Origin: Deltaproteobacteria bacterium
GTDB taxonomy: Bacteria; Myxococcota_C; UBA6777
Reading direction: 5' to 3'
Assembly: GCA_002731275.1 (NCBI GenBank)
Contig: PCBK01000053.1
Span: 1 to 32,206, forward strand
Length of the DNA: 32,206 nucleotides
Shown: one piece after another, positions 4,893 through 29,929 of the stretch
Position numbering within the stretch: the first letter of the stretch is position 1
Layout of the letters: every line of letters begins with the position of its first letter
Position numbers and translations under genes: made by a program
The notes under the pieces: model-generated
The model's input: the letters and a program-made list of their open reading frames with translations, nothing else
What the model was told of the DNA's origin: nothing
Databases searched by the model: none

Positions 4893-5165
4893 ATGGAAAA
4901 GCGTATGTTTGATAAAACAAGACGTCAGATTGAGATGGAACGTGATTATTTGAAACTTCGTATGCACTTGATGAAGCAGGACGCCAAAGACGAGTGGGAG
5001 AAGCTCGAAGGCAAGTGGGGTGAGTTGGAAGACTCCATGCGTTTGATGAAGTACGATGCCGAGAAGACCGGCGAAAAAGTCACAGAGTCCCTTGGTGAAG
5101 CGGCTGAAGAGTTGAAGAAGGGATACGAGAAGTTCCGTGAACGATTGACCAAGCCGCTCAAATAA
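4893..5165 (+). CDS. Small highly charged coiled-coil protein
   Basis: A 90-residue soluble protein with no signal peptide. It is almost entirely predicted helix, with dense Lys/Glu/Asp and heptad-spaced Leu, Met and Trp (for example YLKLRMHLMKQDAKDEWEKL), and an internal near-repeat of the type 'LrMhLMKqDAkdEWEKL / MRLMKYDAEKTGEKV'. This indicates an amphipathic helical hairpin or oligomeric coiled coil. I do not recognise a family. The ATG at 4893 has AAGGAG 8 nt upstream and was chosen over a TTG at 4857, which lies inside a leader hairpin. It sits alone behind a sigma-54 promoter and a GGA-hairpin leader, so expression is probably conditional (stress, envelope or developmental signal). 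Its last 8 nt overlap the 3' end of the convergent LRR gene. Confidence 0.85.
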   Translation: MEKRMFDKTRRQIEMERDYLKLRMHLMKQDAKDEWEKLEGKWGELEDSMRLMKYDAEKTGEKVTESLGEAAEELKKGYEKFRERLTKPLK

Positions 5166-6681: not shown

Positions 6682-8219
6682 GTCGATATCTCGTCGAGTA
6701 GTGCTGCGATGATTTCGTCTGTCTCTACGTTTGGATCAATGGAGAGCCCTTTGTCTTGTGCCGCCTGCAACAGGTCATGTTGTGTACACTGTGCAAGGCA
6801 CTGTCGTCGAATATGTCGAGGGAGTTGTTCAGCATTGGCCAAGCCCAAGTAGCCCCTTGGGCCGATGCGACAATGCTGGAGTTGTAATGTCCGAAGCTGC
6901 CCAAGATGGGGAGCGCGCGCGAGCTGTAATGCACCTTCGTCTCCGAGCGGGTTGGACATGAGGTTGAGTGTGTGAAGTTGTCCGAGCAGGGGAGATGTTG
7001 CGAGCGCTCCTATCCCCTCCGCGTCCAACTCTGTCCGTTCGAGTGAGAGAGTGTGAAGCTGTGGTAGCTGTGATGTCTGCAAGAGCGCAGACACACCTGT
7101 ATTCTCAAGTGGATTGAAGGATACATCCAGTCTCTCCAACTGCGCAAAGGACTTGGGTGTGTGAAAGTGTTGTATACTCTCCGCTGAGAGCTGATTATCC
7201 CGAAGAGTGAGTGAGGTGAGTTGTGGAGAGAGTGTGCTCTCACTCAGCGCTGAGAGTCCATGCGTGGAGAGGCGAGTCCGTGAGAGGTTGAGTTCTCGAA
7301 GAGCAGGTAGTGTCGTGCATTGTGCGAGTGTGAAAAGACCTTCATCGAGCAATGGGTTGTTGGCCAATGAGAGGGTCTGTAATTGCGCGAGATGAGGGGA
7401 GCGTGTGAGTAGCGCGATACCTTTGGGGGTGAGCTCGTTGTCTTCGAGAGAGAGCGATGTCATCTGCGCCATCGAGGGGGCGCTCACTAAAGAGCGAAGC
7501 CCCGCGTCACCGAGCGTGTTGCGACTGAGATCCAACGCTCGTAATCCAGTCAAAAAGAAGGAGCTGCTGAGGGCGACGAGACCTTCAACGCCGATACGGT
7601 TGGCCGCAAGATCGAGCCGTGTCAATGCCGTCATATAGGGAGAATCTGCGATCGCGATCGCGCCTTCGTCCTGGATATTGTTTTTGGCGAGCGAGAGCGT
7701 TGTCAGTGAGGCGAGACTCTCTGCCTCCATCAACACGGTGGTGCCGTCTGGACCGAGCAGGTTGTTGTCGAGTCTGAGTGCTTGAGGTGCGGGAGCGCTC
7801 GGTGCGTGAAAGAGGCGCTTGATTTTCTCTATATTTTGTTTGCTTGTACCATGTTGTCGACTCCGGGCACGCAAATCCAACGTGGTGATGTCTTGCAAAT
7901 AGGTGGATTGCACGAGTTGGTCGATGTCTTCTGACGAGAATGTCGCCAAATCGAAGGAGAGTGTCCGCACCAGGGAGAAAGGGGGCTGTGACGGACCTTC
8001 TGGATAGTCTGGCCAGCACGAAGAGAGATCGAAGAAGCGGATCGTATCGCTCCATCCTTCGAGGTGGTCTCGTGCGTAGAGCAACCCAACCTCTCTCGAT
8101 TTTGGTTCGTCCCAGTGACGAAAGAGACGAAGGACCTGAGCAAAATGTTTGCGTGTGGGAGGTTGCGCAAGTAACTCTCTTAGTTTGGAGAGGTAACCTT
8201 GTACGTGATTGTGTTCCAT
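6678..8219 (-). CDS. Leucine-rich-repeat protein A (ribonuclease-inhibitor type)
   Basis: A 513-residue paralog of the downstream LRR protein. It has an N-terminal region of about 95 residues (LRELLAQPPTRKHFAQVLRL; the paralog has LRRLLSVPSKAHFGQLF), then about 13-14 LRRs such as LTSLSLEDNELTPKGIALL, then a SAP-like tail (QHDLLQAAQDKGLSID, then DEIIAALL). No secretion signal is visible, so a cytoplasmic scaffold or regulator is likely. The ATG at 8219 has GGAG 11 nt upstream, a rather long spacing. It is the first gene of a two-gene operon. The 440 bp upstream contains an A-rich stretch (minus-strand sense, 8373-8396) but no promoter I can define. The biochemical role is not known. Confidence 0.88.
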   Translation of the reverse strand: MEHNHVQGYLSKLRELLAQPPTRKHFAQVLRLFRHWDEPKSREVGLLYARDHLEGWSDTIRFFDLSSCWPDYPEGPSQPPFSLVRTLSFDLATFSSEDIDQLVQSTYLQDITTLDLRARSRQHGTSKQNIEKIKRLFHAPSAPAPQALRLDNNLLGPDGTTVLMEAESLASLTTLSLAKNNIQDEGAIAIADSPYMTALTRLDLAANRIGVEGLVALSSSFFLTGLRALDLSRNTLGDAGLRSLVSAPSMAQMTSLSLEDNELTPKGIALLTRSPHLAQLQTLSLANNPLLDEGLFTLAQCTTLPALRELNLSRTRLSTHGLSALSESTLSPQLTSLTLRDNQLSAESIQHFHTPKSFAQLERLDVSFNPLENTGVSALLQTSQLPQLHTLSLERTELDAEGIGALATSPLLGQLHTLNLMSNPLGDEGALQLARAPHLGQLRTLQLQHCRIGPRGYLGLANAEQLPRHIRRQCLAQCTQHDLLQAAQDKGLSIDPNVETDEIIAALLDEIST

Positions 8220-10946: not shown

Positions 10947-10969
10947 GAAAAGAGTGAACTGGATTCACT
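10947..10969 (-). terminator. Weak intrinsic terminator of the VWA gene
   Basis: On the minus strand, AGTGAA-TCCAG-TTCACT forms a 6-bp stem (10953-10969) followed by CTCTTTTCG. The upstream arm includes the stop codon of the VWA/MopE gene (10965-10967). The stem is short and AT-rich, so efficiency is uncertain. Confidence 0.4.
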
Positions 10970-13670
10970 TTCGTTTGAGAGTGACAGGCAAGAGACAGAG
11001 CCATAGCAGCAGGAACAACATAGAGGCGGGCAGTGGTTGTGTGTCGCTGCTACATGTACATCCGGGGCTGCGTTTTGGGGGATTCGATGTACCACCTCCG
11101 TCTTGTGTTGTGATGTTTTCTTGCCCGTTGGGATTTGTGGTGTTCTCCGTCCCGTTTGTAAGCTCGCTGTTGTTCACCTGTTCGCTGTTTGTGGGTTCAC
11201 TGGAGGTGGACTCGGTGTCACCGCCTTCTGTATCGTTGGGCTCAGTGCTGTTGAGCTTGATACAACGACCTTGCTGGCAGAACAGTCCATCGGGGCAGCC
11301 TTCTGTCTCGCATGTTTTTTGGACGCAGATCCCTTCTTGACATCCCCACTGTGGTGGGCAACTGACGGATGCACAAGCATCGATACACTGACCGGCCTTA
11401 CACGTCGCACCTTGTGGGCAATGGACACGTAGACAAGGATCGTCTTCACATGTTCCATTTTTGGGCAAGCAGAGTTTGCCTTTGTCACAGGTGACAGTCT
11501 TGCAAGGATCGTCCATACATGTTCCTGCGTCACAGTATTGCCCTGTTTTGCACTGTACGCCAGCGCAAGCGTCCGCAGCGCACTTCCCTTTGGTGCAAGA
11601 TTGTCCTTGTGGGCATTGGACCGCAAAGCACGAATCGACACATGTACCATCTTCACATTGCTGACCGGTGGCGCATTGTTTATTGGCACAAGCGTCGGCA
11701 ACACACTTACCGGATTTACAGTACATACCGTCGCTACAGCCGGTGTTGTAACAATTGTCTTCGACACATGTCCCTTTGAGGCAGACTTGCCCTGCGGTGC
11801 ATTTTTTGGTCTTGCAGGGATCGGTGCATGTGCCGGACTGACAGACTTCGTTGCCAGGGCAGTGGACACCTGTACATGGTGGGTCTACACATTCTCCGGC
11901 GACACAAGTACGTCCCTTGGGGCATGAGAGAGAGGGGCAGGGGTCATCCTGACAGCTCCCTTGTAGACAGATCTTGCCGGCATTGCAGCTCACATTGGCG
12001 CATGGGTCTTTGATACATTGTCCGGCTGTACAGGATTGTCCTGCAGGGCAGGTGACAGTGGCACAGGATGCTTCACAGCGGCCTTCGCGACAGACTTCGC
12101 CTTGGGCACATGTCTGTGAGGCGCATGGATCGGCGATACATACACCCTGTACACAGAGTGTACCGGAGGGACAACCGAAGGCATAACAATCTGCTTGGAT
12201 ACACTTGCCGGCGGTACAACTTTGTCCATCAGGACAGACTTTCAGGCTACAGAGATCGACACATTGTCCACCTACACAGGTTTGTCCTGTGGGGCAGGCT
12301 GCCGGACAGGTGTCTTTGGGATGACAGAATCCATTTTTGCAGAGGGCATCGACAGTACATTCACCACTGGTACAGGGGGACAGACAGCTCCCTTCGACAC
12401 AGGGAGCGTTGTCCGGGCAGGTGACATTGGTGTCGATGTTTCCATCACAATCATTATCGATCCCATCGCACACTTCTTGTTCGGGTTTTTGTGCGTTACA
12501 GGTGCTCCATGTGCCTTGCTGACAGCGCTCAACACCCTCACCACATTTGCTTTTGCAGGTACGGACGAGTTGTTCGTCGATTTGACCATCGCAGTCGTTG
12601 TCTTTTCCATCACAGACTTCGGGGGTTGGGAGAACGTCGGGGATACATGGTTGCCAGGAATCATTTTTACAGGACTGTTTGCCTCGACCACATGCAGTGG
12701 CGCAGGTTTGCGTTTCGCCTTCTTTGCAGGTCTTGTTGCAGCCATCATCGATTGTGCCATCGCAGTTTTCGTCTTTTCCGTTGTCACAGATCTCCGCTTT
12801 GGGCAAGACTTGGTTTTGACAGGTCTTGCTCCAAGCGCCTGCTTGACAGGTTTGTACACCATCCCGACACAGGCCTTTTTTGCGGGTGTCTTTGGGGCCT
12901 GTGTAGCACGCTCTTGTCTGTCCAGGGAGACACTGACATGTGATGCCATCGTCGATTTTACCGTTACAGTCGTTATCTTTTCCGTCACAGACTTCCGCTG
13001 TGGCTTGCAGCGCGATCTTGTTGAGCGCGTTTTTGAGCGATGTTTTGTTGTCCGCCTGGTAATACTTACTGGTCCCACCTGCTTTTGCCATGCTTGTCAG
13101 CTCCGTTGGATTCACACCCTGTCCAAAGCCTACCACGTACGTTTTGACTGTGTACGTCTTCCCTTTGACGGGGATCGAACGAAGCGCTTTTACGTTGGCT
13201 GTCCCCGAACCGTCTGTGGAGCGGCCATCTGTCACAAAGAGGACAAAGTTACCTCTCGGTTGTTTTGGATCGTTGGGGATGAGGTCCGTGCGGAAATACT
13301 CTCGAACAATCTCCATCGTTTTGCGGATCGGTGTGCCGTAGCAGAGCTTTGTAGGGAGCTTGTTGATAATCTTGCCGTTGCTGGTGTTCGTGATTTTCTG
13401 CTTGATGACGACACCATCACCTTTCTTGTTTCCACAAAATGTCACAAGACCAAAGCGTAGCGACTTTGAGAAGTTGTTGACGATGTATTTGATCGCGGCA
13501 TTAGCATCTGCGAGCTTGTTGTTTTTCTTCATGCTGTTGGAGTTGTCGAGGACGATCAACATGTTGGGCTTGTCGCAGCTTTGTGCGTGTGCTGTCGAAA
13601 TGGATGCACACCATCCCACTAAGCACAGGGCGAGAACCATCAAGGGGTTGAGGAGACGGACATTCTTCAT
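10965..13670 (-). CDS. Secreted VWA / MopE-motif / cysteine-repeat protein, MYXO-CTERM-like tail
   Basis: A 901-residue surface protein. A signal peptide (cleavage likely after AHA29) is followed by a von Willebrand A domain (about 33-215) with an intact MIDAS, D42-N-S44-N-S46, for a divalent metal. Four MopE-like metal-binding motifs follow (CDGKDNDCNGKIDDG, CDNGKDENCDGTIDDG, CDGKDNDCDGQIDE, CDGIDNDCDGNID), separated by Cys-bridged segments that include a CYTGP module shared with the WD40 lipoprotein at 15168. Next come about 18 short Cys-rich units of about 26 residues (CxxxxCxxGxxCxxGxC), then a Ser/Thr/Asn linker, and a tail with GCTCSS, a hydrophobic segment and LKRK. That tail is like the MYXO-CTERM surface-sorting signal. 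A role in adhesion or matrix assembly is inferred. Antisense open frames in this region are composition artefacts. Confidence 0.92.
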   Translation of the reverse strand: MKNVRLLNPLMVLALCLVGWCASISTAHAQSCDKPNMLIVLDNSNSMKKNNKLADANAAIKYIVNNFSKSLRFGLVTFCGNKKGDGVVIKQKITNTSNGKIINKLPTKLCYGTPIRKTMEIVREYFRTDLIPNDPKQPRGNFVLFVTDGRSTDGSGTANVKALRSIPVKGKTYTVKTYVVGFGQGVNPTELTSMAKAGGTSKYYQADNKTSLKNALNKIALQATAEVCDGKDNDCNGKIDDGITCQCLPGQTRACYTGPKDTRKKGLCRDGVQTCQAGAWSKTCQNQVLPKAEICDNGKDENCDGTIDDGCNKTCKEGETQTCATACGRGKQSCKNDSWQPCIPDVLPTPEVCDGKDNDCDGQIDEQLVRTCKSKCGEGVERCQQGTWSTCNAQKPEQEVCDGIDNDCDGNIDTNVTCPDNAPCVEGSCLSPCTSGECTVDALCKNGFCHPKDTCPAACPTGQTCVGGQCVDLCSLKVCPDGQSCTAGKCIQADCYAFGCPSGTLCVQGVCIADPCASQTCAQGEVCREGRCEASCATVTCPAGQSCTAGQCIKDPCANVSCNAGKICLQGSCQDDPCPSLSCPKGRTCVAGECVDPPCTGVHCPGNEVCQSGTCTDPCKTKKCTAGQVCLKGTCVEDNCYNTGCSDGMYCKSGKCVADACANKQCATGQQCEDGTCVDSCFAVQCPQGQSCTKGKCAADACAGVQCKTGQYCDAGTCMDDPCKTVTCDKGKLCLPKNGTCEDDPCLRVHCPQGATCKAGQCIDACASVSCPPQWGCQEGICVQKTCETEGCPDGLFCQQGRCIKLNSTEPNDTEGGDTESTSSEPTNSEQVNNSELTNGTENTTNPNGQENITTQDGGGTSNPPKRSPGCTCSSDTQPLPASMLFLLLWLCLLPVTLKRK

Positions 13671-15167: not shown

Positions 15168-17675
15168 TTAATCGATACTTCCATCACAATCGTTATCGAG
15201 ACCGTCTTGTTTTTCGGGGTAGGGGAGGGTCTCTTTGCGACAGACTCCCCAATCACCTCGACTTGTGCAGGTGCGTGTCCCCGTTTTACAGACACCTCGC
15301 CCTTGTGTCCCAACTGGACCGGTGTAGCAAGGCTCTGTTGTTCCGGGTTGACAACGACATTGCCAGAGTCTGATCAGGCCAGGGGTGTTACTCGCGAGCT
15401 GATCGCCTGCTCCCCAGACGATCTGGTGGGCGTCGCTCTTGAATGTGTGCATGTGTTTTCCGAGATACAGATCCCAAAAGCGTATGGTGCCGTCCTTGGA
15501 AGCGGAGCTTAGATAGTGTTTGGAGGGGTGGAAGGAGAGATGGAGGACTTCGTCTGTGTGTCCTGTGAGGACGAATTTTGTGGTGTGATTTGTCAATGTC
15601 CAGATGCGGAGTTCTTTATCTTTCCCACCGGAGGCCAGGAGTTCTCCGTCATGAGAGAGGGCGACACTGATGATCTCTCCACTGTGTCCTCGGAGGGTTT
15701 GTTCGAGTGTGCCTGTTTGGATATCCCAGATCTTGATCAGAGTGTCCGATGAAGCTGTGATGAGACGTTTGCCATCAGGGTGAAAGAGCGCGGCGTTGAT
15801 GCGTTTGGTGTGTCCATTTTTGATGGTTTGGATGAGGGTGCCTTTGACGGGGTCCCAGATCTTCACGTCACCGTTTTGTTCGACAGAGACGAGTTGTTTG
15901 CCATCCTTGCTGTACGCGAGGCTGGCGAGGAAGGTGTTCTTGAGCAGGATCAGCCGTGGTTTGTTGCTCCCTGCATCGTAGAGGAGGAGGCCTTCTGCGC
16001 CGTGGCTTTGGTTTGCGACGGCGAGCCCTGTTGCGTCCTCTGTCAGCGCGACTGCGGGCGTCGGATAGCCTCGGAAGGATGGGCGTAGCTCGATCCGTTT
16101 GACGTGTTTGTGGGTGCTGGTCTCCCACAGATCACAGTGGGCGCTGTAGCAGGTGAGCAGCCACTTGCCATTTTTGGTGAGGACCATGCTTTTGACACCT
16201 GTATGTGGACTGTGTCCTGGAAAGACTGTGTATTCAGGTTGGTGTGTTTGGTGATTCCAGACACGTACGTTGTGTCCACCTGTTGCGAGGACAAGGCGTC
16301 TCTTTGGATCGAAGGCGACTTGGGAGGTATCAGCGCGCAGTGAGGTGATGTATTTTCCTGTCGAAAGCTCCCACAGCTCCAATTGTGTGGTGCCGATCGC
16401 GAGGGTTAGATTGTCAGGAGAGAAGAAGAGATAGCGCGCGAAGCTGACCTTTGGTTGGATGGAGCGGACCTTTTTGAGTGTCGTGAGATCCCAGACCTCG
16501 ACGGGGGTGCGATCGTTGAAGTTTGTAAACGCGAGCCAACGACCATTTGGGCTTAGTGCTATGCTCGTCCCAGTGTTGTTGTACGATTTGATGATCCTCT
16601 TGAGGCGTTGTGTGGAAAGCTCCCACTGTTTGATCTGGTGGGTCGCGATAAACATGTCTTTGCCATCTGGTGTAAAGGCCATACCTCCTATGTTCGCTGG
16701 GTAGGGGTAGCCCGGAAGAGGTGTTTGGCTTTGACCTGTGAGGATATCCCAAAAGCGCAGGCGGTAGGAGCCAGAGGCGAGCGTCCGACCATCAGGATGA
16801 AGCGCGAGGTGGAACGCCGGCTGCACATGTCCCTTGAGATCGCGCGTCAACTGCGCGGTCTGTGCGTCCCAGACTTTGACCATATTGTCACCTGAAGAGG
16901 CCGTAATGATCGTCTTTCCATTGGGCGCGAGGATCATACTGTGGATGCGACCTGTGTGCCCTTTGAATTGCCTCAAAAGTTCACCCGTTGCGACCGCGCG
17001 TGCTTGTATCTCGTTGTCTTTGCCAAAGTAGATCGTCTTGCCATCTTGACTAAACGAGATCCCTGCGACTGAGCGGGCGTCTCCAATTAAATCATCGAGG
17101 ACCACAGGCATACATGGCGCGCAGCCTTCGTTGATTTGGCCATCACAGTCGTTGTCCTTGTCGTCACACAATTCTTTTGATGGGAGTATCTGTTGTGTAC
17201 ACGCTGACCACGTCCCATCCGGTTGACAGCGTTGAACGCCTGCCTGACACGCACCCACGTCTTTTGTTCCTGTGGGACCTGTGTAACATACGCGCTCCTG
17301 GCCGGAGACACACTCCGTCTCTGGGAGCGATGGTTCTGGGCCGGGAGGTTCTGGACGCAGCTCGGTGGTGGGCGCTGGCTCTGTGGGGGGTTCTTCTGGT
17401 GTGGCTTCGTTGGCGTCTTGTGTCGGTTGTTCGGGTGTTGTCGTGGGTTTGGGTTTGGTGCAGTTGCCGTCGATACAGATCATGCCTGTGGGGCACTCCG
17501 TGTTGTCGATACAAGGCCACTCATCTGGCATAAACCAGATGTATGATGAGCACCCAAAGACCGAGAATATGAGATAGAAAGACAGCACAATGGGGAACCA
17601 TTGGCCAGCTCTTTTTTTCTTCTCGTGGTTTGGGGGTGGAGAGAGAGACGTTCTTTGTTTTGATGTATCACGCAT
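15168..17675 (-). CDS. WD40-repeat lipoprotein flanked by MopE-type modules
   Basis: An 835-residue protein starting at ATG 17675. A basic N-terminus and a hydrophobic segment end in FSVFGC, giving a likely lipidated Cys42. Then come a small Cys-rich segment (CIDNTECPTGMICIDGNC), a Pro/Glu/Thr linker of about 50 residues, and a MopE-type module (CYTGP, later CDDKDNDCDGQINEGC). About a dozen WD40 repeats (for example GHTGRIHSMILAPNGKTI, VKVWDAQTAQL) probably form one or two propellers for protein binding. The C-terminus carries a second CYTGP module that stops within the metal motif (GLDNDCDGSID), with no following Cys. A TTG start 14 codons upstream is possible, but neither start has a strong ribosome site. 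Propellers on lipoproteins usually act as envelope scaffolds. The partner is unknown. Confidence 0.88.
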   Translation of the reverse strand: MRDTSKQRTSLSPPPNHEKKKRAGQWFPIVLSFYLIFSVFGCSSYIWFMPDEWPCIDNTECPTGMICIDGNCTKPKPTTTPEQPTQDANEATPEEPPTEPAPTTELRPEPPGPEPSLPETECVSGQERVCYTGPTGTKDVGACQAGVQRCQPDGTWSACTQQILPSKELCDDKDNDCDGQINEGCAPCMPVVLDDLIGDARSVAGISFSQDGKTIYFGKDNEIQARAVATGELLRQFKGHTGRIHSMILAPNGKTIITASSGDNMVKVWDAQTAQLTRDLKGHVQPAFHLALHPDGRTLASGSYRLRFWDILTGQSQTPLPGYPYPANIGGMAFTPDGKDMFIATHQIKQWELSTQRLKRIIKSYNNTGTSIALSPNGRWLAFTNFNDRTPVEVWDLTTLKKVRSIQPKVSFARYLFFSPDNLTLAIGTTQLELWELSTGKYITSLRADTSQVAFDPKRRLVLATGGHNVRVWNHQTHQPEYTVFPGHSPHTGVKSMVLTKNGKWLLTCYSAHCDLWETSTHKHVKRIELRPSFRGYPTPAVALTEDATGLAVANQSHGAEGLLLYDAGSNKPRLILLKNTFLASLAYSKDGKQLVSVEQNGDVKIWDPVKGTLIQTIKNGHTKRINAALFHPDGKRLITASSDTLIKIWDIQTGTLEQTLRGHSGEIISVALSHDGELLASGGKDKELRIWTLTNHTTKFVLTGHTDEVLHLSFHPSKHYLSSASKDGTIRFWDLYLGKHMHTFKSDAHQIVWGAGDQLASNTPGLIRLWQCRCQPGTTEPCYTGPVGTQGRGVCKTGTRTCTSRGDWGVCRKETLPYPEKQDGLDNDCDGSID

Positions 17676-17844
17676 GGTGTGTCCCGATCTGTGTCTCGTG
17701 TCTTTTGGCCGGTGCAAATCGCGCCTGTTTGTTGTATGTAACAGAAACGTTAGGCCATCGTATCACAGCACGACAAAAGAAAAAAGAACGAACACAAGGC
17801 GATACGTATTTGTATGAGGTCAACCCGAACGAAGAGAGGACGTG

Positions 17845-20797: not shown

Positions 20798-21781
20798 TCA
20801 GATTCGAGTGGGGTAGTTGGTGATGACCAATTCATTTTTGCGACCGCGTTTGGCGAAGTTGGAGTTGATCTTGCGCAGCGCTGAGACTCGTCTGATCGCG
20901 AAGCCATCGTAAAGTGTGTCGAAGAAGTCGTCTTCGGGATCTTCGTTGGTCGGGTCGGAGTTGCTGAGCATCAGAGACGCTCCTTGTGCGTCGAGCTGCC
21001 GAAAGATCGCCGCGAGCTCTCTCTGATCGTTGTCGTTGAAACCCGGACCGTAATAACCTGTAAAGTGGGAGGTCGCGTTGAGTGGCCTGTAGGGGGGATC
21101 GAAGTACACAAAGCAGCCATCATCCATCTTTTCGATCGGAAACTCCCGGAATCCTGCGACTGTGAGCTGTGCGTGTTGTAGCAACTGTGAAACATGTCTG
21201 AGATTCAACTCATCGAGGATCTGTGGTTTTTTGTGTTTCCCCCAAGGGACGTTAAAGAATCCCTTCTTGTTGACCCTGAACATCCCACCATATCCGCACT
21301 TGTTGAGAAAGATAAATTGCGCAGCGCGCTCGATGCTCTGGGTGGAACATTCCGTGTAGCAGAAGTCTTCGGGAGGTTGGTTGAACGCATCACGTACATC
21401 TTGATACAGGGCTGCTTGTTCGTCGGCTGCTGCGCCATGATAACGTTGTGTGTAGTCTTCGAGGATGCCGATCAGAGCCTCCACGTCTTGTTTGACGGCT
21501 CTATACGTCAGGATCAAATTGGGGTTGATGTCTGAGAGCAAGATCCGTTCAAAAGGGATGTGGCTGGTGAGTGAGAGAAAGATCGCGCCACCACCGAGGA
21601 AAGGTTCTGCGTAGGTGTGGTAGCGGTGTTGGTAGAGGGCGTCCGGGTAAAGGGACTGGAATTGTTCGTGGTGGAGACGTTTTCCACCAACCCACTTGAT
21701 AAAGGGTTGGGCTGTTCGATCTGGAAAAGCGTTAGAGGCTTGGGGTGTGGTTTCTTCTACCGTGGAAAGGCTGGCGTTCAT
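20798..21781 (-). CDS. Orphan DNA adenine-N6 methyltransferase, DpnII/MboI/Dam type
   Basis: A 327-residue alpha-class (D12) adenine methyltransferase. The SAM-binding motifs are FIKWVGGKR (27-35) and AEPFLGGGAIF. The acidic SDINPNL motif, the CGYGGMFRVNKKGFFNVPWG stretch typical of GATC enzymes, and the catalytic DPPY (VYFDPPYRPL) all follow in order. The C-terminal RKINSNFAKRGRKNELVITNY region is like M.DpnII/M.MboI, so G-m6A-TC methylation is expected. No restriction gene is adjacent, which makes it solitary and regulatory (replication, repair or gene switching) or a remnant of a lost restriction system. The ATG at 21781 has only a weak ribosome site. An upstream start at 21835 would overlap the palindrome at 21818-21836, and the added residues do not look like protein. 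The porin-like gene lies 125 bp upstream. Confidence 0.93.
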   Translation of the reverse strand: MNASLSTVEETTPQASNAFPDRTAQPFIKWVGGKRLHHEQFQSLYPDALYQHRYHTYAEPFLGGGAIFLSLTSHIPFERILLSDINPNLILTYRAVKQDVEALIGILEDYTQRYHGAAADEQAALYQDVRDAFNQPPEDFCYTECSTQSIERAAQFIFLNKCGYGGMFRVNKKGFFNVPWGKHKKPQILDELNLRHVSQLLQHAQLTVAGFREFPIEKMDDGCFVYFDPPYRPLNATSHFTGYYGPGFNDNDQRELAAIFRQLDAQGASLMLSNSDPTNEDPEDDFFDTLYDGFAIRRVSALRKINSNFAKRGRKNELVITNYPTRI

Positions 21782-21817
21782 ATTGTGTCTCACTGCTGGT
21801 CGGTGTCTTCGTAGGCT

Positions 21818-21836
21818 TATGTGTACTGTACACATA
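21818..21836. promoter_or_regulatory. Perfect 19-bp palindrome upstream of the methyltransferase
   Basis: TATGTGTACTGTACACATA has 9-bp arms around a central T, 37-55 bp upstream of the methyltransferase start and just past the porin-like gene. It lacks a GC-rich stem or T-run, so a repressor operator (possibly controlling the methyltransferase) is more likely than a terminator. It does not match the E. coli LexA box. Confidence 0.5.
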
Positions 21837-21906
21837 GGCACCTGATGGGAGCGACATGATAGCAAGAACGATATCTTCACGCAAGGAATCCACCATCCCT
21901 CCGATC

Positions 21907-22914
21907 TCAAAAGCGACAAATCACCTTTGCACCGACGAGATGACGTTGCAAAGCGAAGTCGACAAAATCGACGCGATATTCCAGCATCGCAGTCCAGCCA
22001 TCCCACGGTTTAGAGAGGAAGGCGACACTGACCTCGTCTTGGTCTGCACCCAGATCGGAGATCTTTCCGGGGTCAGAGACGCGACCATATCGCACTGTAA
22101 ACCCGATATAGCGAGAAGGCATGTAGTGTGCTGTCACCTGTCCAACGTAGAAAAATTGGCCTGAGCTGATGACAGCGAGTGTACCTTCAGCAGCGATCTT
22201 AAGACGATCGGAGAGCAACGACAAGGTCAGCTGAAGATCCAGCAAGGTCAGTCGTTCATCCTGATACGCCGATGAGACAGCAGAGGGCTCTCGTCCATTG
22301 GTGACAGAGGTGTGTAGCAAGAGCGCGCCCAACTGGAAGCTCATCGCGAGCCCAAAGGTCGGGTGCAGATCGATATCTTCGATCAGATCCCAGCCATTTG
22401 AGATAAACCCAAAGAGTTCAAAACGATCGGTCTTGATGCCCAGCTTCAATCCGGTCAGTGTGTTGGGGGTGACATTGTTCGCAAAGCTCGCCGTGATCTG
22501 GTACCGATCGACTGTGTTGACCGCGTCCCAACCTTGTGGCGCAAAGAATTTCCCGACAGTGACGTAACCTTGCAGCTGTTTGGACAGCGCGAAGGTGTGT
22601 GAGACAAAGGCCTCCTGCAAGAGTTTGTCCACAAGCATCCATGAAAAGTCCGGTGTCGTCGCATCCTGCAAGAAGTGCACTGAGAAGCGCACTTGTGTGT
22701 GTTTGTGGGGTGTTGCGTCGATGGAGAATTCGATCTCGTTGAGACGCCAGCTGAAATTGGTCTGGTCGTTTTGCGGTGTATGTGTGAACAGACTCCCGGC
22801 GTCGACAAATCCCTCTAATTTGAGCTGTTTGTTGAGCGTTGCGGCTTGACTCACTGACACAAAGGAGACGGACAACAAAAAGCATGCACATAGGATGAAA
22901 AGTGTTCGGAACAT
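21907..22914 (-). CDS. Outer-membrane beta-barrel, porin-like protein
   Basis: A 335-residue protein. Its signal peptide (MFRTLFILCACFLLSVSF, cleavage probably after SQA) is followed by many alternating-hydrophobicity strands (KLEGFVDAGSLF, EIEFSIDA, QVRFSVHFL, QGYVTVGKFFAPQGWDAVNT) and a terminal Phe (KVICRF), the usual barrel-assembly signal. The GKFFAPQGWDA region resembles the putative porin families in which a 'G.f..p.G.e' loop follows early strands. A channel for small solutes is inferred. ATG 22914 was chosen because it begins the signal peptide. Its ribosome site is weak (AAAGAAG). It lies 67 bp downstream of a second outer-membrane gene on the same strand, so the two are probably one operon. 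Confidence 0.85.
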   Translation of the reverse strand: MFRTLFILCACFLLSVSFVSVSQAATLNKQLKLEGFVDAGSLFTHTPQNDQTNFSWRLNEIEFSIDATPHKHTQVRFSVHFLQDATTPDFSWMLVDKLLQEAFVSHTFALSKQLQGYVTVGKFFAPQGWDAVNTVDRYQITASFANNVTPNTLTGLKLGIKTDRFELFGFISNGWDLIEDIDLHPTFGLAMSFQLGALLLHTSVTNGREPSAVSSAYQDERLTLLDLQLTLSLLSDRLKIAAEGTLAVISSGQFFYVGQVTAHYMPSRYIGFTVRYGRVSDPGKISDLGADQDEVSVAFLSKPWDGWTAMLEYRVDFVDFALQRHLVGAKVICRF

Positions 22915-22981: not shown

Positions 22982-23755
22982 TCAGGATCGTTTGATGCGT
23001 GTGTCGAAGATGTACGCGAGTGAGAAGACAAACACAAACGCTCTCCTGTCTGGCTGTGGGTGGAAGGCATCAAGCTCCACACCAAGGGTCAAAGTCGTGT
23101 TCAAAGGAAAGTTGATGTTGGCTGCGAGCGCAAAGACCCCCCTTTGTGTCAGCCCCTGGCTGAGCTGCCATGTGTGTGACCACTCTGCGAGTAATTGGAA
23201 GATGCCAGGGACAACTTCGTATCCAACTCCCACATCGTAACGTCCACCCCATGAGAGGTCCGTTTCGTGAAAGAGCGCAGGTGTCACGCTCATATCGACC
23301 ATCCATTGAGAATGAGGTCGCCACGTCGCAACAAAACCCGCATCGAGCAACCACGCCTTACTGTAAATTGGAACCTGTACACCACCATAGACTGAGAGCT
23401 GCCATGTAGAATGGGTCAACACATTCCACTTTGTGCCGATTCCTATATTTTCGAGAAATGTATTGGCACTTTTTTGTGTGATTTGGTTGAAAAAGGGAAT
23501 GTTAAAACCCAATTCAAGTGAGCGTGAGAGTCCGATCGTCAATCGATGGGAAAACTCGATCATTTGCGCGACGCGTTTGTATTGGTCTTGAGTATCGAAG
23601 ATGTGTCCGCTCTTGAAGGTCGGAGAGTATTCGAGATGTTGCTCTTGTAAAACACCTGCTGAGGGGACATTGAGGAGCGCGTTACTGATACCTTCTGTCG
23701 CTTGCGCGTAAGAGGGAAACAAGACACACAAAAGGATCATGACAAACCGTTTCAA
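22982..23755 (-). CDS. Outer-membrane beta-barrel protein of unknown function
   Basis: A 257-residue protein with a short signal peptide (n-region KRF, core VMILLCVLF, cleavage after AQA), then barrel-like strands (LEYSPTFKSGHIF, LTIGLSRSLELGFNIPFF, WQLSVYGGVQVPIY, DVGVGYEVVPGIFQLLAEW). The C-terminal strand is FVFVFSLAYIFDTRIKRS. It resembles small 'transporter/MetA-pathway of phenol degradation'-type barrels in length and layout, but no specific function can be assigned. The start is taken as TTG 23755 because AGGAG sits 6 nt upstream and because it supplies the positively charged n-region; ATG 23740 would give a signal lacking it. It is probably co-transcribed with the porin-like gene that follows. 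Confidence 0.82.
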   Translation of the reverse strand: MKRFVMILLCVLFPSYAQATEGISNALLNVPSAGVLQEQHLEYSPTFKSGHIFDTQDQYKRVAQMIEFSHRLTIGLSRSLELGFNIPFFNQITQKSANTFLENIGIGTKWNVLTHSTWQLSVYGGVQVPIYSKAWLLDAGFVATWRPHSQWMVDMSVTPALFHETDLSWGGRYDVGVGYEVVPGIFQLLAEWSHTWQLSQGLTQRGVFALAANINFPLNTTLTLGVELDAFHPQPDRRAFVFVFSLAYIFDTRIKRS

Positions 23756-23761
23756 AGCGAA

Positions 23762-23766
23762 CTCCT
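23762..23766 (-). promoter_or_regulatory. Ribosome-binding site fixing a TTG start
   Basis: AGGAG on the minus strand, 6 nt before TTG at 23755. The alternative ATG at 23740 is 21 nt away from it, too far for this site. Confidence 0.65.
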
Positions 23767-23900
23767 GTTGATACGTAGTGGGGGCACATTCTCCAAACGT
23801 GTTTTTTGCAAGAAGTGATCCGTGTATTCGTCTCTTCAGAGATGGGATATGGGGAGAGTGGTCTATCATTAAAAATAGGTGGGTTGTTACGTCGGAGAGC

Positions 23901-24162: not shown

Positions 24163-25653
24163 ATGACTCTCGATCAAACGAAAAACGCTGAAGCATCCCA
24201 GAGCACTCAAGTTGCAGCACCTACGAAACAAGTCAAGCCTTTTGAGCCTGGCTCGTACGAGATGCAAAATCACTTCTATCCACGTGTTCTCAATGCCCAG
24301 ATCCACCCACTCGTGCGCTTCTTTATGAACCTGGGCAATGAGCGGATCGCGCAGCGTTACTGTCACCTTCACCCGGAGACTCCCTATGAGGATATCCTCG
24401 CGGTGTTGCAAAAAGAGTCGAGATTCTTTCGTTGGGGGGGCGCAGACCTCTTCCAGACAACAACCGACAAAGGGATTCGTCAGACTGTTGTCATTGAGAC
24501 AAACTCTAGCCCCTCCGGTCAAAAATCCATGCCCTTGTTGGAAGAAGGGCAAGAGCAAGCAGGTTACAGAAAGCTCCTTGAGCGCTCCTTCTTGCCAGCC
24601 GTACGCAAGAAGAAATCCCTCAAAGGTGTGCTCGCTGTCCTCCACGACAAAAACCCTATGGAGACAGAGGGATACGCGTCGACACTGGCGGACCTTGCAG
24701 GTGAGACTGTGTACCACGTCCCTTTCTACGTCAACGATCCCAATCCACCCGCGCGCTTTGTCGACGGGATCCTGGAGATCTACGTCAAAGGTGATTGGGT
24801 CCCCGTCCGCGGCGCGCTCAAGTACGTGACACAGCGCCCCTGGACACGCATCCCGCCTATCACCAAGACCCTGATCTTCAACCCGGTCTTGTGTTGCCTC
24901 GCTGGCGGACGTAACAAATTGTTGGCGGCCAAAGCATACGACATGTTTAACGCCAACCACCAAGAGTCCGGTTTTCAGATCCATGCACCTGAGACCATCT
25001 GGGATGTGTCCCACAGAGAGATCCCTTTTTGGGTTGAACGTATGGGCGGCTTTGCGGTCGTGAAAAACCCCTACAGTAACGCTGGACAGGGAGTTTGGAC
25101 CATCACAAACCAGGACGAGTTGGACGCTTTCATGGCGCTGGAGCAACGCTACGATCAATTTATCGTGCAGGCGCTGATCGGTAACCGCAACTGGAGCTCA
25201 CGTGGTAGCCACGGTTCGCTGTATCACCTCGGCACGATCCCCAACAAGAAAAAGAACTTGTTTGTTGTGGACTTTCGCTTCATGGTCGGCAGCAGCCCCG
25301 AAGGTTTCTTCCCTGTCGCGATCTATGCACGCCGCGCACGTAAGCCGTTGGCCAAAGATCTTGACGGCTCTGTACATTCGTGGGAGATGTTGGGGACGAA
25401 CCTCTCAGTCAAAAAAGAAGATGGCAGTTGGGACACAGAGAGTCATCGCTTGTTGTTGATGGACTCACGGGACTTTAACGCGCTTGGTTTGGGTGTCGAT
25501 GACCTCGTTGAGGCCTACATCCAGTCTGTTCTTGCGGTCTCCGCGATCGAAGATATGTCTGCCCGTCTGGTCACCCAGAAAGGCAAATTCCGCAGACGTT
25601 TGTTCCAATCCTTGAACCCTGATGCCTCTTTGGTCGAGGAAATTTGCGAATGA
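24163..25653 (+). CDS. ATP-grasp-like protein (unassigned family), first gene of ligase operon
   Basis: A 496-residue soluble protein. I do not recognise a named family. Two stretches look like ATP-grasp features: VVIETNSSPSGQKSMPLL (about 108-125), reminiscent of the metal-binding E-x-N strand, and AVVKNPYSNAGQGVWTI (about 325-340), like a nucleotide-binding Lys strand with a Gly-rich loop. FRFMVGSSPEGFFPVAIYARR also fits the core. The order may be circularly permuted, as in glutathionylspermidine-synthetase-like ATP-grasps. If correct, it forms an amide bond between a carboxylate and an amine at the cost of ATP. ATG 24163 has GGAG 7 nt upstream and was preferred over ATG 24124 and GTG 24088. 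Its stop overlaps the next start (ATGA), implying coupled expression. The antisense frame here is a shadow. Confidence 0.8.
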   Translation: MTLDQTKNAEASQSTQVAAPTKQVKPFEPGSYEMQNHFYPRVLNAQIHPLVRFFMNLGNERIAQRYCHLHPETPYEDILAVLQKESRFFRWGGADLFQTTTDKGIRQTVVIETNSSPSGQKSMPLLEEGQEQAGYRKLLERSFLPAVRKKKSLKGVLAVLHDKNPMETEGYASTLADLAGETVYHVPFYVNDPNPPARFVDGILEIYVKGDWVPVRGALKYVTQRPWTRIPPITKTLIFNPVLCCLAGGRNKLLAAKAYDMFNANHQESGFQIHAPETIWDVSHREIPFWVERMGGFAVVKNPYSNAGQGVWTITNQDELDAFMALEQRYDQFIVQALIGNRNWSSRGSHGSLYHLGTIPNKKKNLFVVDFRFMVGSSPEGFFPVAIYARRARKPLAKDLDGSVHSWEMLGTNLSVKKEDGSWDTESHRLLLMDSRDFNALGLGVDDLVEAYIQSVLAVSAIEDMSARLVTQKGKFRRRLFQSLNPDASLVEEICE

Positions 25654-26708
25654 TAGAATGGATTGAAGGTGCCGGAAAAGTCCGATGCACAGAAGCTTTA
25701 GAGCTGGATGATCTGCCAAAAGGGACCGTCTCAAGGTTGCTCGTCGAGATCGCACGCGACGCACTTGGTGCGCCGATCTGGGCACCTGTCCTCGTTGCAC
25801 GAGGCGAAAAACCCGGACCTGTCTTTGGGATGACCTCGGCTCTGCACGGTAACGAGCTCAATGGTGTGCCCGTTATCCATCGCGTGATCAACGATTTGCA
25901 GCTGCGCGCGCTTCGTGGAACAGTCGTCGGGGTCGTGATCGCGAACGTCCCGAGCTATCTTCGAGAGCAGCGACGATTTCCTGATGGGACAGACCTCAAC
26001 CACATCATGCCTGGTCGACATGATGGAAACGTCGCAGAGATTTTCGCCTATCGTCTCGTGCACAGGATCTTGAAGACGTTCAACTACCACGTCGATCTGC
26101 ACACGGCGAGCTTTGGTCGGATCAACTCATTGTATGTTCGCGCAGACATGAAAGATCCGACCACATCACAGATGGCGTATCTACAACGACCACAGATCAT
26201 CCTGCACAACCCGGCGTCAGACCATACGTTTCGGGGGACGGCGATGGAGTTAGGGATCCCTTCGGTCACACTGGAGATTGGAAACCCTCATCGCTTTCAG
26301 CCTGAGTATGTCAAGCGCTCGATCGTAGGGATGCGTGCAATCCTCGCTGAGTCGGGGATGGTCGCCAAGCGCCCACTGTCGATGAAAGAGCCACCTGTTT
26401 TGTGCTCCTCTTCAAAGTGGATATACACTGACGCAGGCGGGTTTTTGGAAGTTCTTCCTGGCGTCACTGAGCGACTCCAAGAAGGGCAGGTGATGGCGCG
26501 ATTGACAAACGCCTTTGGTGACATCATTCGCGAGTATAAAGCGCCCTTTGATGGGATCGTGATTGGAAAAAATGTCAACCCTGCTGCACAGACAGGCGCG
26601 CGGATCTTACACCTCGGTGTGCCTGCAGACGCCAAAGAGCACGGGTTTCAAGAGAGGCGCGAGTGGAAACGTCCAAAAGCTCGCAAGCCCAAGGATACAG
26701 AGAGATGA
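25650..26708 (+). CDS. AstE/aspartoacylase-family zinc hydrolase
   Basis: A 352-residue M14-like metallo-hydrolase. The zinc ligands are H66 and E69 (SALHGNELNG) and H151 (DLHTASFG). The expected catalytic Glu is E209 (VTLEIGNPHRF), and DLNHIMPG (115-122) corresponds to the family's D-[LM]-N-R-x-[FM]-P-G segment. The C-terminal about 90 residues (GGFLEVLPGVTERLQEGQ, later APFDGIVIG) form the usual barrel-sandwich domain. Relatives remove an acyl group from N-acyl amino acids (succinylglutamate, acetylaspartate, acetyl-diaminobutyrate). The substrate here is unknown. It overlaps both neighbours by 4 nt (ATGA), so it is made in step with two ligase-like proteins. It may therefore trim or recycle their N-acylated or peptide product. 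Confidence 0.9.
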   Translation: MIEWIEGAGKVRCTEALELDDLPKGTVSRLLVEIARDALGAPIWAPVLVARGEKPGPVFGMTSALHGNELNGVPVIHRVINDLQLRALRGTVVGVVIANVPSYLREQRRFPDGTDLNHIMPGRHDGNVAEIFAYRLVHRILKTFNYHVDLHTASFGRINSLYVRADMKDPTTSQMAYLQRPQIILHNPASDHTFRGTAMELGIPSVTLEIGNPHRFQPEYVKRSIVGMRAILAESGMVAKRPLSMKEPPVLCSSSKWIYTDAGGFLEVLPGVTERLQEGQVMARLTNAFGDIIREYKAPFDGIVIGKNVNPAAQTGARILHLGVPADAKEHGFQERREWKRPKARKPKDTER

Positions 26709-27691
26709 AGTTTTCATTCTTGGTCAACGAATTTAAGACCCTCGTCGCCAGCCAGACCACCGCCATGTTGATGGAAGCTGCGGTCGTCAAAGGGCACGAT
26801 ATCTACGTCTTTGGCGTCGCAGACCTCGGTCTCACCCCCGAAGGCCAAATCGTCGCCGCTGCTCGTCATTGTCCTGCCGGGCAGCTCGAAGGGGTCGCTG
26901 AGTGTGTTGCCTTCCTCAAGGAAGCGACACCCCAAACCCTTGACCTGTCTGCCTCGGACGTCGTGTTGTTGCGGACCAACCCCGCACGTGACAAAGAACG
27001 CCAATGGGCCCACGACACTGCGATGTCATTCATGAGAATGTTACGGGATCGTGGTACGCCTGTGCTCAACGATCCTGATGGCCTGATCCGGGCGAGCAAT
27101 AAGCTCTACCTCGGGATGTTTCCCCCCGAAGTTTACCCACGGACCATGGTCAGCTGTCAGCCCAAAGAGATCCACGAATTTGTCACCTCGATGGATGAGA
27201 CCTGTGTGCTCAAACCATTGCAGGGGACGCGCGGTCGGGATGTGTTCTTTGTGCACCCTGGCAAATACGAAAATCTTAATCAAATTATCGATGTGTTAAC
27301 GAGGGATGGATTCGCGATGGTGCAATCCTTCCTTCCCGAAGCTGTGCGTGGTGACATCCGTGTCGTTACGATGGATGGGAAGATCCTCGAAGTAGATGGA
27401 AAACCTGCGGCGGTCGCACGTGTCCCTAAGACAGGTGACCTTCGCAGCAACATTCACGCAGGAGGGAAAGCCGAACCACCAAAGATTACGGATGCGATCC
27501 GCGAAGTCGTCTCTGTGATCGGTCCTCGACTCGTCGAGGATGGGATCTTTTTAGCCGGTCTCGACTTTATTGGGAACAAGGTCGTCGAGATCAACGTCTT
27601 TAGTACCGGTGGCTTCCGTGATGCCGAAAAGTTCACGGGGATTCCATTTAGCGAATTGGTCATTGAGGAGCTCGAAGCACGCTTCGGCTAG
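26705..27691 (+). CDS. Glutathione synthetase (GshB)-like ATP-grasp ligase
   Basis: A 328-residue ATP-grasp ligase. The GshB layout is clear: an N-terminal Rossmann-like domain, LNDPDGLIRASNKLYLGMFP (121-140; GshB has 'NDP..LR..NEK'), the ATP-binding K170 in VLKPLQGTRGRDV, a glycine loop RSNIHAGGKAEP, and the metal-binding end DFIGNKVVEINVF (GshB 'EINVTSP'). The 'TSPTG' of true GshB is replaced by FSTGG, and no gshA-type ligase is in the window, so the product may not be glutathione. The starting ATG overlaps the upstream stop (ATGA). It probably joins a second amino acid to an acyl or peptidyl substrate in the same pathway as the two upstream genes. Confidence 0.88.
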   Translation: MKFSFLVNEFKTLVASQTTAMLMEAAVVKGHDIYVFGVADLGLTPEGQIVAAARHCPAGQLEGVAECVAFLKEATPQTLDLSASDVVLLRTNPARDKERQWAHDTAMSFMRMLRDRGTPVLNDPDGLIRASNKLYLGMFPPEVYPRTMVSCQPKEIHEFVTSMDETCVLKPLQGTRGRDVFFVHPGKYENLNQIIDVLTRDGFAMVQSFLPEAVRGDIRVVTMDGKILEVDGKPAAVARVPKTGDLRSNIHAGGKAEPPKITDAIREVVSVIGPRLVEDGIFLAGLDFIGNKVVEINVFSTGGFRDAEKFTGIPFSELVIEELEARFG

Positions 27692-27713
27692 GCCAATATC
27701 AGGAGACAACGCC

Positions 27714-28130
27714 ATGATTGGACGTCATCAAATTGTTGAAGAACTTGCAAGCCTCTACAGAGAAGAAGGTTACCCCACCTTCAAACGCACCGAATTTGAT
27801 GGGCTTTACCCCGACCTTCGGGTCGGTGAAAAGCTACGACATGCGCTGGTGATCAAGGTCGAGACCTATCGCCAGCTCGATTCTCCCCGCATCCAGGAAG
27901 ACTGGTGGCGGTTTGACCAAAATTATAAGGAGTGGTTCCTCTGTGTTCATAATGACCACTGGAACGACGCCGAAGACCTCTGTGATATGTGGGGCATCAA
28001 GAACGCCACGATCTTCGCCTGGGAAGAAGATGATGATGGTGAGATCTGGTTCCACGACGCGCCTTTCCTTGAAGAAGCGCCGATCGCGGTCCCCTACAAA
28101 GCGCCTTCCCTCCAAACTGCACGTCGCTAA
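27714..28130 (+). CDS. Small acidic protein ending the ligase operon
   Basis: A 138-residue cytoplasmic protein of unknown function, rich in Trp and Asp/Glu (RIQEDWWRFDQNYKEWFLCV, FAWEEDDDGEIWFHDA). The first half (VEELASLYREEGYPTF, then LYPDLRVGEK, then ALVIKVETYR) has the layout of small PD-(D/E)xK-fold proteins, but the catalytic E-x-K reads K-V-E, so nuclease activity is doubtful. AGGAG lies 8 nt before the ATG. It follows the GshB-like gene by 22 bp on the same strand, so it is the likely fourth gene of the operon. Alternatives are a binding or carrier partner of the ligases. It lacks the C-terminal EDWGE-type Glu of LysW-like amino-group carriers. Confidence 0.8.
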   Translation: MIGRHQIVEELASLYREEGYPTFKRTEFDGLYPDLRVGEKLRHALVIKVETYRQLDSPRIQEDWWRFDQNYKEWFLCVHNDHWNDAEDLCDMWGIKNATIFAWEEDDDGEIWFHDAPFLEEAPIAVPYKAPSLQTARR

Positions 28131-28170: not shown

Positions 28171-29745
28171 TCACTCAAAGATCGCAATGGGTGGCTTTGT
28201 ATCCCACTCTCCGTACAGCAGCTCCACACGGTACTTTCCAAAGTGAGGGGGGCGTGTATCCTTAAACGAAAAGGTTCGTGATTGTCCCGAGCGCATTGGG
28301 CTCATCGAGAAGTGACGTTTGGCAACTGTGCGACCATTTTTCAGATACACCACGCGGAATTTCAGCTTCTTGAGTCCCCACTTTGCATAGTTTTTCACTC
28401 TCCCCTTTAACCTGAATGTCCGTCTCAACAACATCTGTGTCGTGCGGCCGAATAGATCCGTGTACTTCACGAAGGGTTTGATGTCAGCCGCTCGGTTTTT
28501 GCGTTGTGGTTGGGGGTGAAGCAAGATCTGGCCCTTCTCGTGATCGAGCGTAAACAAGAAGCGTCGAAGGACATTCAACCCAAGCAGGCCGGAGAGACCA
28601 CGTTGTCTGTCTGCGCACGCGTTGCACACGACAAACGCTACGTTCCTGAGCGTGTATCCTCCGAGTGTCAGTTGGGAGAGCAGCCCGACAGGTGCGCGGA
28701 CGCGGCCATTTGCAGTTTGGAGCGTCAGCGATGGGGCGTTGTGAGGGACCCGGATGCGCAGTTGGTTGACGCGGTGACTGGAGAGTGTGAGGAAAGACGC
28801 GCCTGTGTCGAGTAAGAGTTTGCTCTTTGCGTGCATCAACTCCACAGGGATGATCAGGGATGAGCCTTGTTTTTCGAAGCTCAATCGTATCGTCTTGGCT
28901 GTTCCTGTATTCTTGGGCCGCGCTGGTTTGAGCTGTGGGAGCTTCTTGGGACGCAGGGGCGGGATGAAGCGTGGTGATTTGCGAAAAATGGGGGGGGTAT
29001 TTCGGGACAAAAACGAGCGCAGTGGTTGGAGAATACGTCGTCCAAGGGGGATCGCCTCTCGTTGTGGTGGTTTGGTCTCCGTCGGGGGCGGACGTCGCTC
29101 TATTTGTCTCTCAACGGGGGGTGTGGCTGTGGGTCTTCTTGCTTCGGGGCTGTTGTCTGGCTGTGTATTGGTCTGCTCAGGCGGTGTGGTCCTGCTTGTC
29201 TTGGGTTTGAGCTGACGCTTGAGGAAGCGCTTGGAGAGTACGAGTGTTGGGTTTTCACTCTCCATTTCGAGCAGGTAGGCGATGCGTTTGACGAACTGAC
29301 GGCCTCGGCGGAAGGCGACGTGTTGTTCGCTGACCTGGAGAAAGGTGGCGACCTCTTTGCTAAAGGGCCAATGACCGCTTTGTTTGAGGGCTTGTGAGGT
29401 GAGGGCGGGGGCGAGGACGACGAGCGCGAGTAAGCCGAGGGTGTTAAACAACAACATCACATGTGCGAAGGTGTCCTTGAAGCGAGCTCTTTTGTTCCAT
29501 CGTTGTCGCAACCATGTGAAGGAACTGTTGAGGATCATGGCTGGGATGAAGGCACAGGCCAGACCTACAGCGAGCATGATCGCCGGCGACTGCCAGCTCG
29601 TGACGTGTGCGACGAGGCTTCCGACAAAGAGGACTGAGATAGTGGCGAGTGAAAGACTGGCCAGACTCAACAATAGCCATGCGATACACCCCCATCCTGT
29701 CATGGGTTTGCGCCGCTGTGGTTCGTAATCAGGGTGTGTTCTCAA
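28171..29745 (-). CDS. Membrane-anchored retropepsin-like aspartic protease
   Basis: A 524-residue protein. Three hydrophobic segments near the N-terminus (about 16-42, 48-66, 88-110) are followed by a long Pro/Arg/Thr-rich linker (about 180-290). A retropepsin-like domain contains the active-site motif LLLDTGASFLTL (D313) and the downstream GLSGLLGLNVLRRFLFTLD strand typical of the TIGR02281/gag-asp-protease group. One Asp per chain means it should act as a dimer. The last 100 residues look like a beta-rich add-on (KLKFRVVYLKNGRTVAKRHF). The TTG at 29745 is taken as start because AGGAG is 8 nt upstream; ATG 29703 is the alternative. The start overlaps the end of a possible small upstream gene. 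Substrates are unknown, with envelope proteins plausible. Confidence 0.85.
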   Translation of the reverse strand: MRTHPDYEPQRRKPMTGWGCIAWLLLSLASLSLATISVLFVGSLVAHVTSWQSPAIMLAVGLACAFIPAMILNSSFTWLRQRWNKRARFKDTFAHVMLLFNTLGLLALVVLAPALTSQALKQSGHWPFSKEVATFLQVSEQHVAFRRGRQFVKRIAYLLEMESENPTLVLSKRFLKRQLKPKTSRTTPPEQTNTQPDNSPEARRPTATPPVERQIERRPPPTETKPPQREAIPLGRRILQPLRSFLSRNTPPIFRKSPRFIPPLRPKKLPQLKPARPKNTGTAKTIRLSFEKQGSSLIIPVELMHAKSKLLLDTGASFLTLSSHRVNQLRIRVPHNAPSLTLQTANGRVRAPVGLLSQLTLGGYTLRNVAFVVCNACADRQRGLSGLLGLNVLRRFLFTLDHEKGQILLHPQPQRKNRAADIKPFVKYTDLFGRTTQMLLRRTFRLKGRVKNYAKWGLKKLKFRVVYLKNGRTVAKRHFSMSPMRSGQSRTFSFKDTRPPHFGKYRVELLYGEWDTKPPIAIFE

Positions 29746-29929
29746 GCCTACTTCTCCTTTTACTCGGCCAGATGCACAAAACGTAACCATCCGGAGTATC
29801 GGTCGCGGGCATATTGTCATCGGGGCTTCTCTCTTCAAAGAGAAGATAAGACGTCCCATTGTATGACACAATCCACGGTGGGCATTCTATTCCCAAAGCC
29901 GACACTCCAAGACCGCGTTTTTCTTCCAT
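29729..29929 (-). CDS. Possible small protein upstream of the protease
   Basis: A 66-codon frame with protein-like composition (PPWIVSYNGTSYLLFEE, RSPDDNMPATDTPDGYVLCI). It runs into the protease gene and stops 17 nt past its TTG start, with the protease ribosome site inside its last codons. That arrangement would couple the two. There is no clear ribosome site before its ATG and no known family. A plus-strand frame covers the same DNA but looks less protein-like. Confidence 0.38.
   Translation of the reverse strand: MEEKRGLGVSALGIECPPWIVSYNGTSYLLFEERSPDDNMPATDTPDGYVLCIWPSKRRSRLENTP
29754..29758 (-). promoter_or_regulatory. Ribosome-binding site fixing a TTG start of the protease
   Basis: AGGAG (within AAAGGAG) on the minus strand, 8 nt before TTG at 29745. 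No comparable site precedes the ATG at 29703. Confidence 0.6.

Follow-up and report, generated by a model that had tools for sequence, protein, structure and literature searches.

Could a compact operon that carries a GshB-like ligase be devoted to a product other than glutathione? This question is raised by four genes on a deltaproteobacterial contig (PCBK01000053.1), of which the whole stretch of 32,206 nucleotides that was analysed is termed the window here. A reading made from the sequence only had described these genes as one compact operon, and suggested that they cooperate in making and trimming a small peptide.

Organization of the locus

The four ORFs, designated A to D, are all on the + strand and span 24163-28130 of the window (Table 1). 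The 4-nt sequence ATGA is common to the A/B junction and the B/C junction, and the coordinates confirm the compact arrangement of four genes, with two overlaps and a short gap before the last gene, that had been proposed. Since A-D are flanked on both sides by - strand genes, the four genes stand alone as one unit.

Table 1. Coordinates of the four genes and of other features in the window
Feature	Position	Strand	Description
Gene A	24163-25653	+	496 aa, predicted ATP-grasp ligase of an undescribed family
Gene B	25650-26708	+	352 aa, AstE/AspA-family zinc deacylase
Gene C	26705-27691	+	328 aa, GshB-like ATP-grasp ligase, PRK12458 type
C-D gap	27692-27713	+	22 bp, with AGGAG as ribosome-binding site
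Gene D	27714-28130	+	138 aa, PD-(D/E)XK-like small protein
Upstream flank	22982-23869	-	
Downstream flank	28171-29871	-	Larger protein containing a retropepsin-like aspartyl protease domain, convergent with the operon
Neighbour	20798-22006	-	D12-class adenine DNA methyltransferase
Neighbour	15168-17717	-	Large WD40-repeat protein, 849 aa
Neighbour	10965-13670	-	VWA-domain protein with MopE-type metal-binding motifs
Neighbour	5158-8219	-	Two leucine-rich-repeat proteins in succession, 4-nt overlap

As for the methyltransferase listed in Table 1, the scanned neighbours include no obvious restriction partner.

Gene A, a putative ATP-grasp ligase

Gene A has no match in Pfam at E<1, none of its homologues has one at E<0.1, and nothing significant was found among the PDB sequences, while NCBIfam gave no more than a faint RimK match (E=0.018). 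The family is absent from Pfam and NCBIfam. By hhalign, the profile built from six sequences matches the GshB-type ATP-grasp at residues 233-318 (E=1.2e-5, probability 81%), a region that takes in VVKNPYSNAGQGV. The AlphaFold model, with six sequences behind it, is of moderate confidence (mean pLDDT 68.8). Its top Foldseek matches are eukaryotic glutathione synthetases (GSS, E 8.9e-9), and the comparisons with ATP-grasp ligases by VIA-align give Z of about 9-14. The first rank is occupied by 3k1t (Z 13.7, 326 aligned residues, rmsd 4.8), which shares 14% identity with gene A in the structural alignment. This putative gamma-glutamylcysteine synthetase, the closest solved fold to gene A, is presumably of the PF08886 type (T. 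ferrooxidans-type glutamate-cysteine ligase), to which we assign it from family knowledge. Both the fold and the ATP-binding lysine with the G-rich loop were recognized by the profile and in the predicted structure, which support gene A as a putative ATP-grasp ligase and bear out, by the fold search, the ATP-grasp likeness already suspected for the first protein. It should be noted that residues 1-26 are not common to the homologues, therefore the start of gene A is uncertain.

The order of the motifs was also considered. In GshB, as in gene C, the E-x-N metal motif (EINVFS) closes the ATP-grasp; in gene A, ETNSSPSG at residues 112-119 precedes the ATP-site lysines K252 and K301. The motifs of gene A are kept by homologues that are 53-58% identical, and D95, E112 and N114, in their N-terminal position, are invariant in six homologues; these three residues may correspond to the D..ExN metal motif of ATP-grasp enzymes, as judged from the model and one short motif match. 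The PF08886 proteins carry D-x-N-x-FPAG near the N-terminus, and its best match in gene A is the E-x-N fragment, with a score that was reached by 0 of 150 column shuffles. When the rotated profile of gene A was re-run in hhalign, the local score was the same and the global scores were insignificant. Taken together, the order of the motifs, the structural match and the motif test, itself weak, make a circular permutation of gene A probable and suggest that it may be the one seen in PF08886. As judged by sequence, gene A lies outside PF08886: the PF08886 profile gives no match at E<1, short of the family cut-off, and the full gene A family compared with the full PF08886 family by hhalign reaches a probability of 2.5%. 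A profile search of the window genome found no PF08886 member.

Gene B, a zinc acyl-hydrolase

Gene B scores 102.5 bits against PF24827 (cut-off 25), and the residues H66 and E69 (HxxE), H151 and E209, previously noted as intact zinc ligands, are indeed invariant in seven homologues. Consequently, gene B shows both hallmarks of an AstE/AspA zinc hydrolase, a PF24827 score above the cut-off and the HxxE...H ligands, and its assignment as a zinc acyl-hydrolase is supported; this zinc enzyme probably cuts amide bonds. The nearest solved structures are those of DoeB-type deacetylases. With scores far under the cut-offs of the equivalogs, that is, 54.6 for DoeB (cut-off 402.7), 28.8 for AstE (305.65) and 19.2 for AspA (180), and with the arginine of the LNR motif replaced, gene B is not AstE, AspA or DoeB proper. 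In this superfamily, for example in aspartoacylase and carboxypeptidase A, the LNR arginine binds the substrate carboxylate. The arginine is present in all of the six compared relatives and its place is taken by H118 in gene B, which hints at an altered specificity.

Gene C and glutathione

Gene C resembles GshB along its whole length, and its match to PF02955, the GshB-type ATP-grasp (E=3.9e-45), agrees with the GshB-like ligase first seen in the operon. The best family is PRK12458 (NF009110), with 317.2 bits under a cut-off of 408, and the scores against the glutathione synthase models also lie under their cut-offs (TIGR01380, 190.5 against 299.05; NF003573, 206.9 against 272). In a quick tree, gene C clusters with six PRK12458 proteins (SH-aLRT 80), to which it is 37-42% identical, compared with 29% identity to the gshB of its own genome. 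The ending EINVFSTGG, which had been taken for an altered one, is one version of EINVFSPGG, the signature of PRK12458.

The canonical gshB of the window genome is located on contig C179 (450 bits, cut-off 299), and gene C was rejected as the glutathione synthase of this genome on that ground. A second GshB-like gene, on contig C120 (L015:8881-9831), is divergent, with a very long branch in the tree (2.4). Three GCS2-family genes are also present, and the best gshA candidate, on contig C3, reaches 232 bits (cut-off 463). With a separate canonical gshB and GCS2 genes in the genome, gene C is free for another task, and is probably needless for glutathione. Therefore, the sequence-only reading that gene C does not serve ordinary glutathione synthesis is strengthened by the separate gshB, but its argument from the absence of gshA holds within the window and fails at the genome level.

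In three genomes and three plasmids, the PRK12458 gene follows the genes for an N-formylglutamate amidohydrolase (FGase) and a QEGLA/MATCAP protein. These are not the partners of gene C, which are A and B, and a profile search of the window genome found no match to MATCAP (PF08014). In Photobacterium damselae at low salinity, the genes annotated as GshB (RS17020) and QEGLA (RS17025), which have neighbouring locus tags, were up 38-fold and 27-fold, respectively; they were among the most induced genes, and their response was attributed to glutathione metabolism (PMC10308900). Based on the order of the locus tags, these two genes probably belong to the FGase/QEGLA/PRK12458 operon, and consequently the role of this operon may be osmotic.

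Gene D, a probable bystander

A fold search had been called for in the case of the 138-residue protein. The model, from a deeper alignment, has a pLDDT of 83, and its fold is PD-(D/E)XK-like, with SfsA found by Foldseek and several nucleases at a VIA Z of about 8; such a fold is supported as a prediction. D34, E50, T51 and W64 are invariant, and the motif of gene D reads KVET, compared with EVET in most family members. The family has no Pfam model, its members are present in 12 of 386 genomes, and none was found in plasmids, phages or viral contigs. The neighbours, where read, are NAD kinase/prfB, leuS-like, glycogen-phosphorylase-like (adjoining a family member in three genomes) and other unrelated genes. 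Since the family sits in such unrelated contexts, gene D was rejected as a peptide substrate or a part of the pathway, and is probably a bystander neighbour.

Recurrence of the gene combination

Gene A has homologues, at 53-58% identity, in G002 and G004, which belong to the same family as the window genome, in G037, which belongs to another phylum, and in Paraliomyxa miuraensis and a Kofleriaceae MAG. Among the 386 genomes, five have a match, one of them weak and partial; the weak matches in L010 and G179 were set aside as too short, and a search of plasmids found no match to gene A. In G037, gene A (53% identity) adjoins an AstE-type gene (39-40% identity to B), with stop and start touching, so that the A-B linkage is present in two phyla. 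This pair has no C or D beside it; the next gene encodes a protein kinase (L013:9925-10671) and has an ATGA overlap with B. At the other four homologous loci gene A stands without B or C: no homologue of either lies near it in Paraliomyxa or the Kofleriaceae MAG, and an M20 peptidase gene is located downstream of it in G002 (about 220 bp) and similarly in G004. The combinations A+B+C and A+B+C+D were found in the window genome only. The ligase/hydrolase theme recurs, also as RimB-RimK-AstE in Phaeobacter, but the combination A+B+C is seen once. Co-occurrence in the surveyed neighbourhoods is thin, and one conserved pathway of all four genes is not supported: A+B occurs once elsewhere, A lacks B and C in four other genomes, the D family is found in unrelated contexts and the subfamily of C has an operon of its own.

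What the operon may make

Then, what could be the product of these genes? The best reading, which the evidence supports, is a unit of ligases and a hydrolase whose target is a peptide-like amide. In the scheme that we propose, gene A would probably activate a carboxylate as an acyl-phosphate and join it to an amine, giving a dipeptide or an acyl-amino acid, gene C would add a second unit by the same chemistry, and gene B would take off an acyl or aminoacyl cap, whether in maturation or in turnover; gene D is dispensable for it. Two amide ligations in succession with deacylation or trimming are the most likely activity of the operon, and a short peptide other than glutathione is probably made or edited. 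The data show the families and folds, the catalytic residues, the overlaps between the genes and the linkage of A and B in two phyla; from these we infer the successive action of A and C on one product, the order of the steps and the role of B.

That A, B and C form one unit for the synthesis and editing of a short peptide-like amide is, in our estimate, evenly poised. The two ATGA overlaps and the isolation from other genes count for it, as do the A-AstE linkage that recurs in G037 and the hydrolases that PRK12458 genes also adjoin; the loci where A stands without B or C and the moderate confidence of its model count against it. Because A+B+C was found in one genome only, the products of A and C may be separate. 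More tentative is the fuller proposal that gene A founds an undescribed, circularly permuted ATP-grasp family and makes, with B and C, an undescribed tripeptide-like metabolite other than glutathione.

Enzymes of these kinds also modify the ends or side chains of proteins, such as RimK/RimB on S6 and TTL/MATCAP on tubulin. Accordingly, A and/or C might add amino acids to a protein or another macromolecule, from which B, or the MATCAP or RimB enzyme in sister operons, would remove them. This rival is real, since the subfamily of gene C is paired with MATCAP-type proteins in the PRK12458 operons, and the RimB-RimK-AstE operon of Phaeobacter and the protein kinase gene that overlaps the A+B pair in G037 point in the same direction. 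However, the window operon has no obvious protein substrate, the family of D, with its nuclease fold, occurs in unrelated contexts, and the window genome gave no MATCAP match; on balance, we regard protein modification as unlikely, though deserving of serious attention. The eukaryotic MATCAP members are tubulin carboxypeptidases (PMC10499314).

An accessory route to glutathione or homoglutathione, with A as a divergent GshA, C as a second GshB and B as a deacylase in turnover, would be in keeping with 3k1t as the nearest solved structure to A and with the full-length likeness of C to GshB. Nevertheless, gene A falls short of PF08886 by sequence and the genome has no PF08886 member, gene C scores 190 where glutathione synthase requires 299, and a canonical gshB is present elsewhere, all of which make this route improbable. 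Slightly more improbable still is a loose assembly, in which A+B is a small ligase-deacylase pair to which C and D were added later with no common product, as the solitary A+B pair of G037, the four loci of A without B or C and the single occurrence of A+B+C+D would have it, whereas the 4-nt B/C overlap suggests coupled translation.

If the reading of a unit that builds and edits a peptide-like amide is true, a ligase family new to Pfam and NCBIfam and a new set of partners for PRK12458 ligases would be added. Genome annotation labels PRK12458 ligases 'glutathione synthase', probably wrongly for the subfamily as a whole, and a defined product would lead to the correction of many annotations.

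Comparison with known systems

Gene B shares its catalytic domain and zinc ligands with the AstE, aspartoacylase and DoeB deacylases, and differs from them in lying far under their cut-offs and in carrying H118 for the LNR arginine. The PF08886 GshA (3k1t) is like gene A in that an acidic-x-N-x-x-P-x-G motif near the N-terminus lies ahead of the ATP lysine. It often adjoins gshB, a common layout for glutathione according to the coordinates in several genomes, which offers a parallel for A+C; however, it has no Pfam-level sequence match to gene A.

In Phaeobacter inhibens (pP78_a), an AstE homologue adjoins RimK in a RimB-RimK-AstE operon, so that an ATP-grasp ligase is next to an AstE/AspA-family enzyme as in the window operon. 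Here, the AstE-like member is 27% identical to B, RimK is a standard unpermuted ATP-grasp, and the RimB-like protein has no counterpart in the window operon. The PRK12458 operon resembles gene C and its neighbours in the EINVFSPGG-type end and in the ligase gene adjoining hydrolase genes. Gene C differs in scoring below the family cut-off and in its lack of the C-terminal extension, and the partners are FGase and QEGLA/MATCAP in the PRK12458 operon, compared with A and an AstE-type enzyme for gene C.
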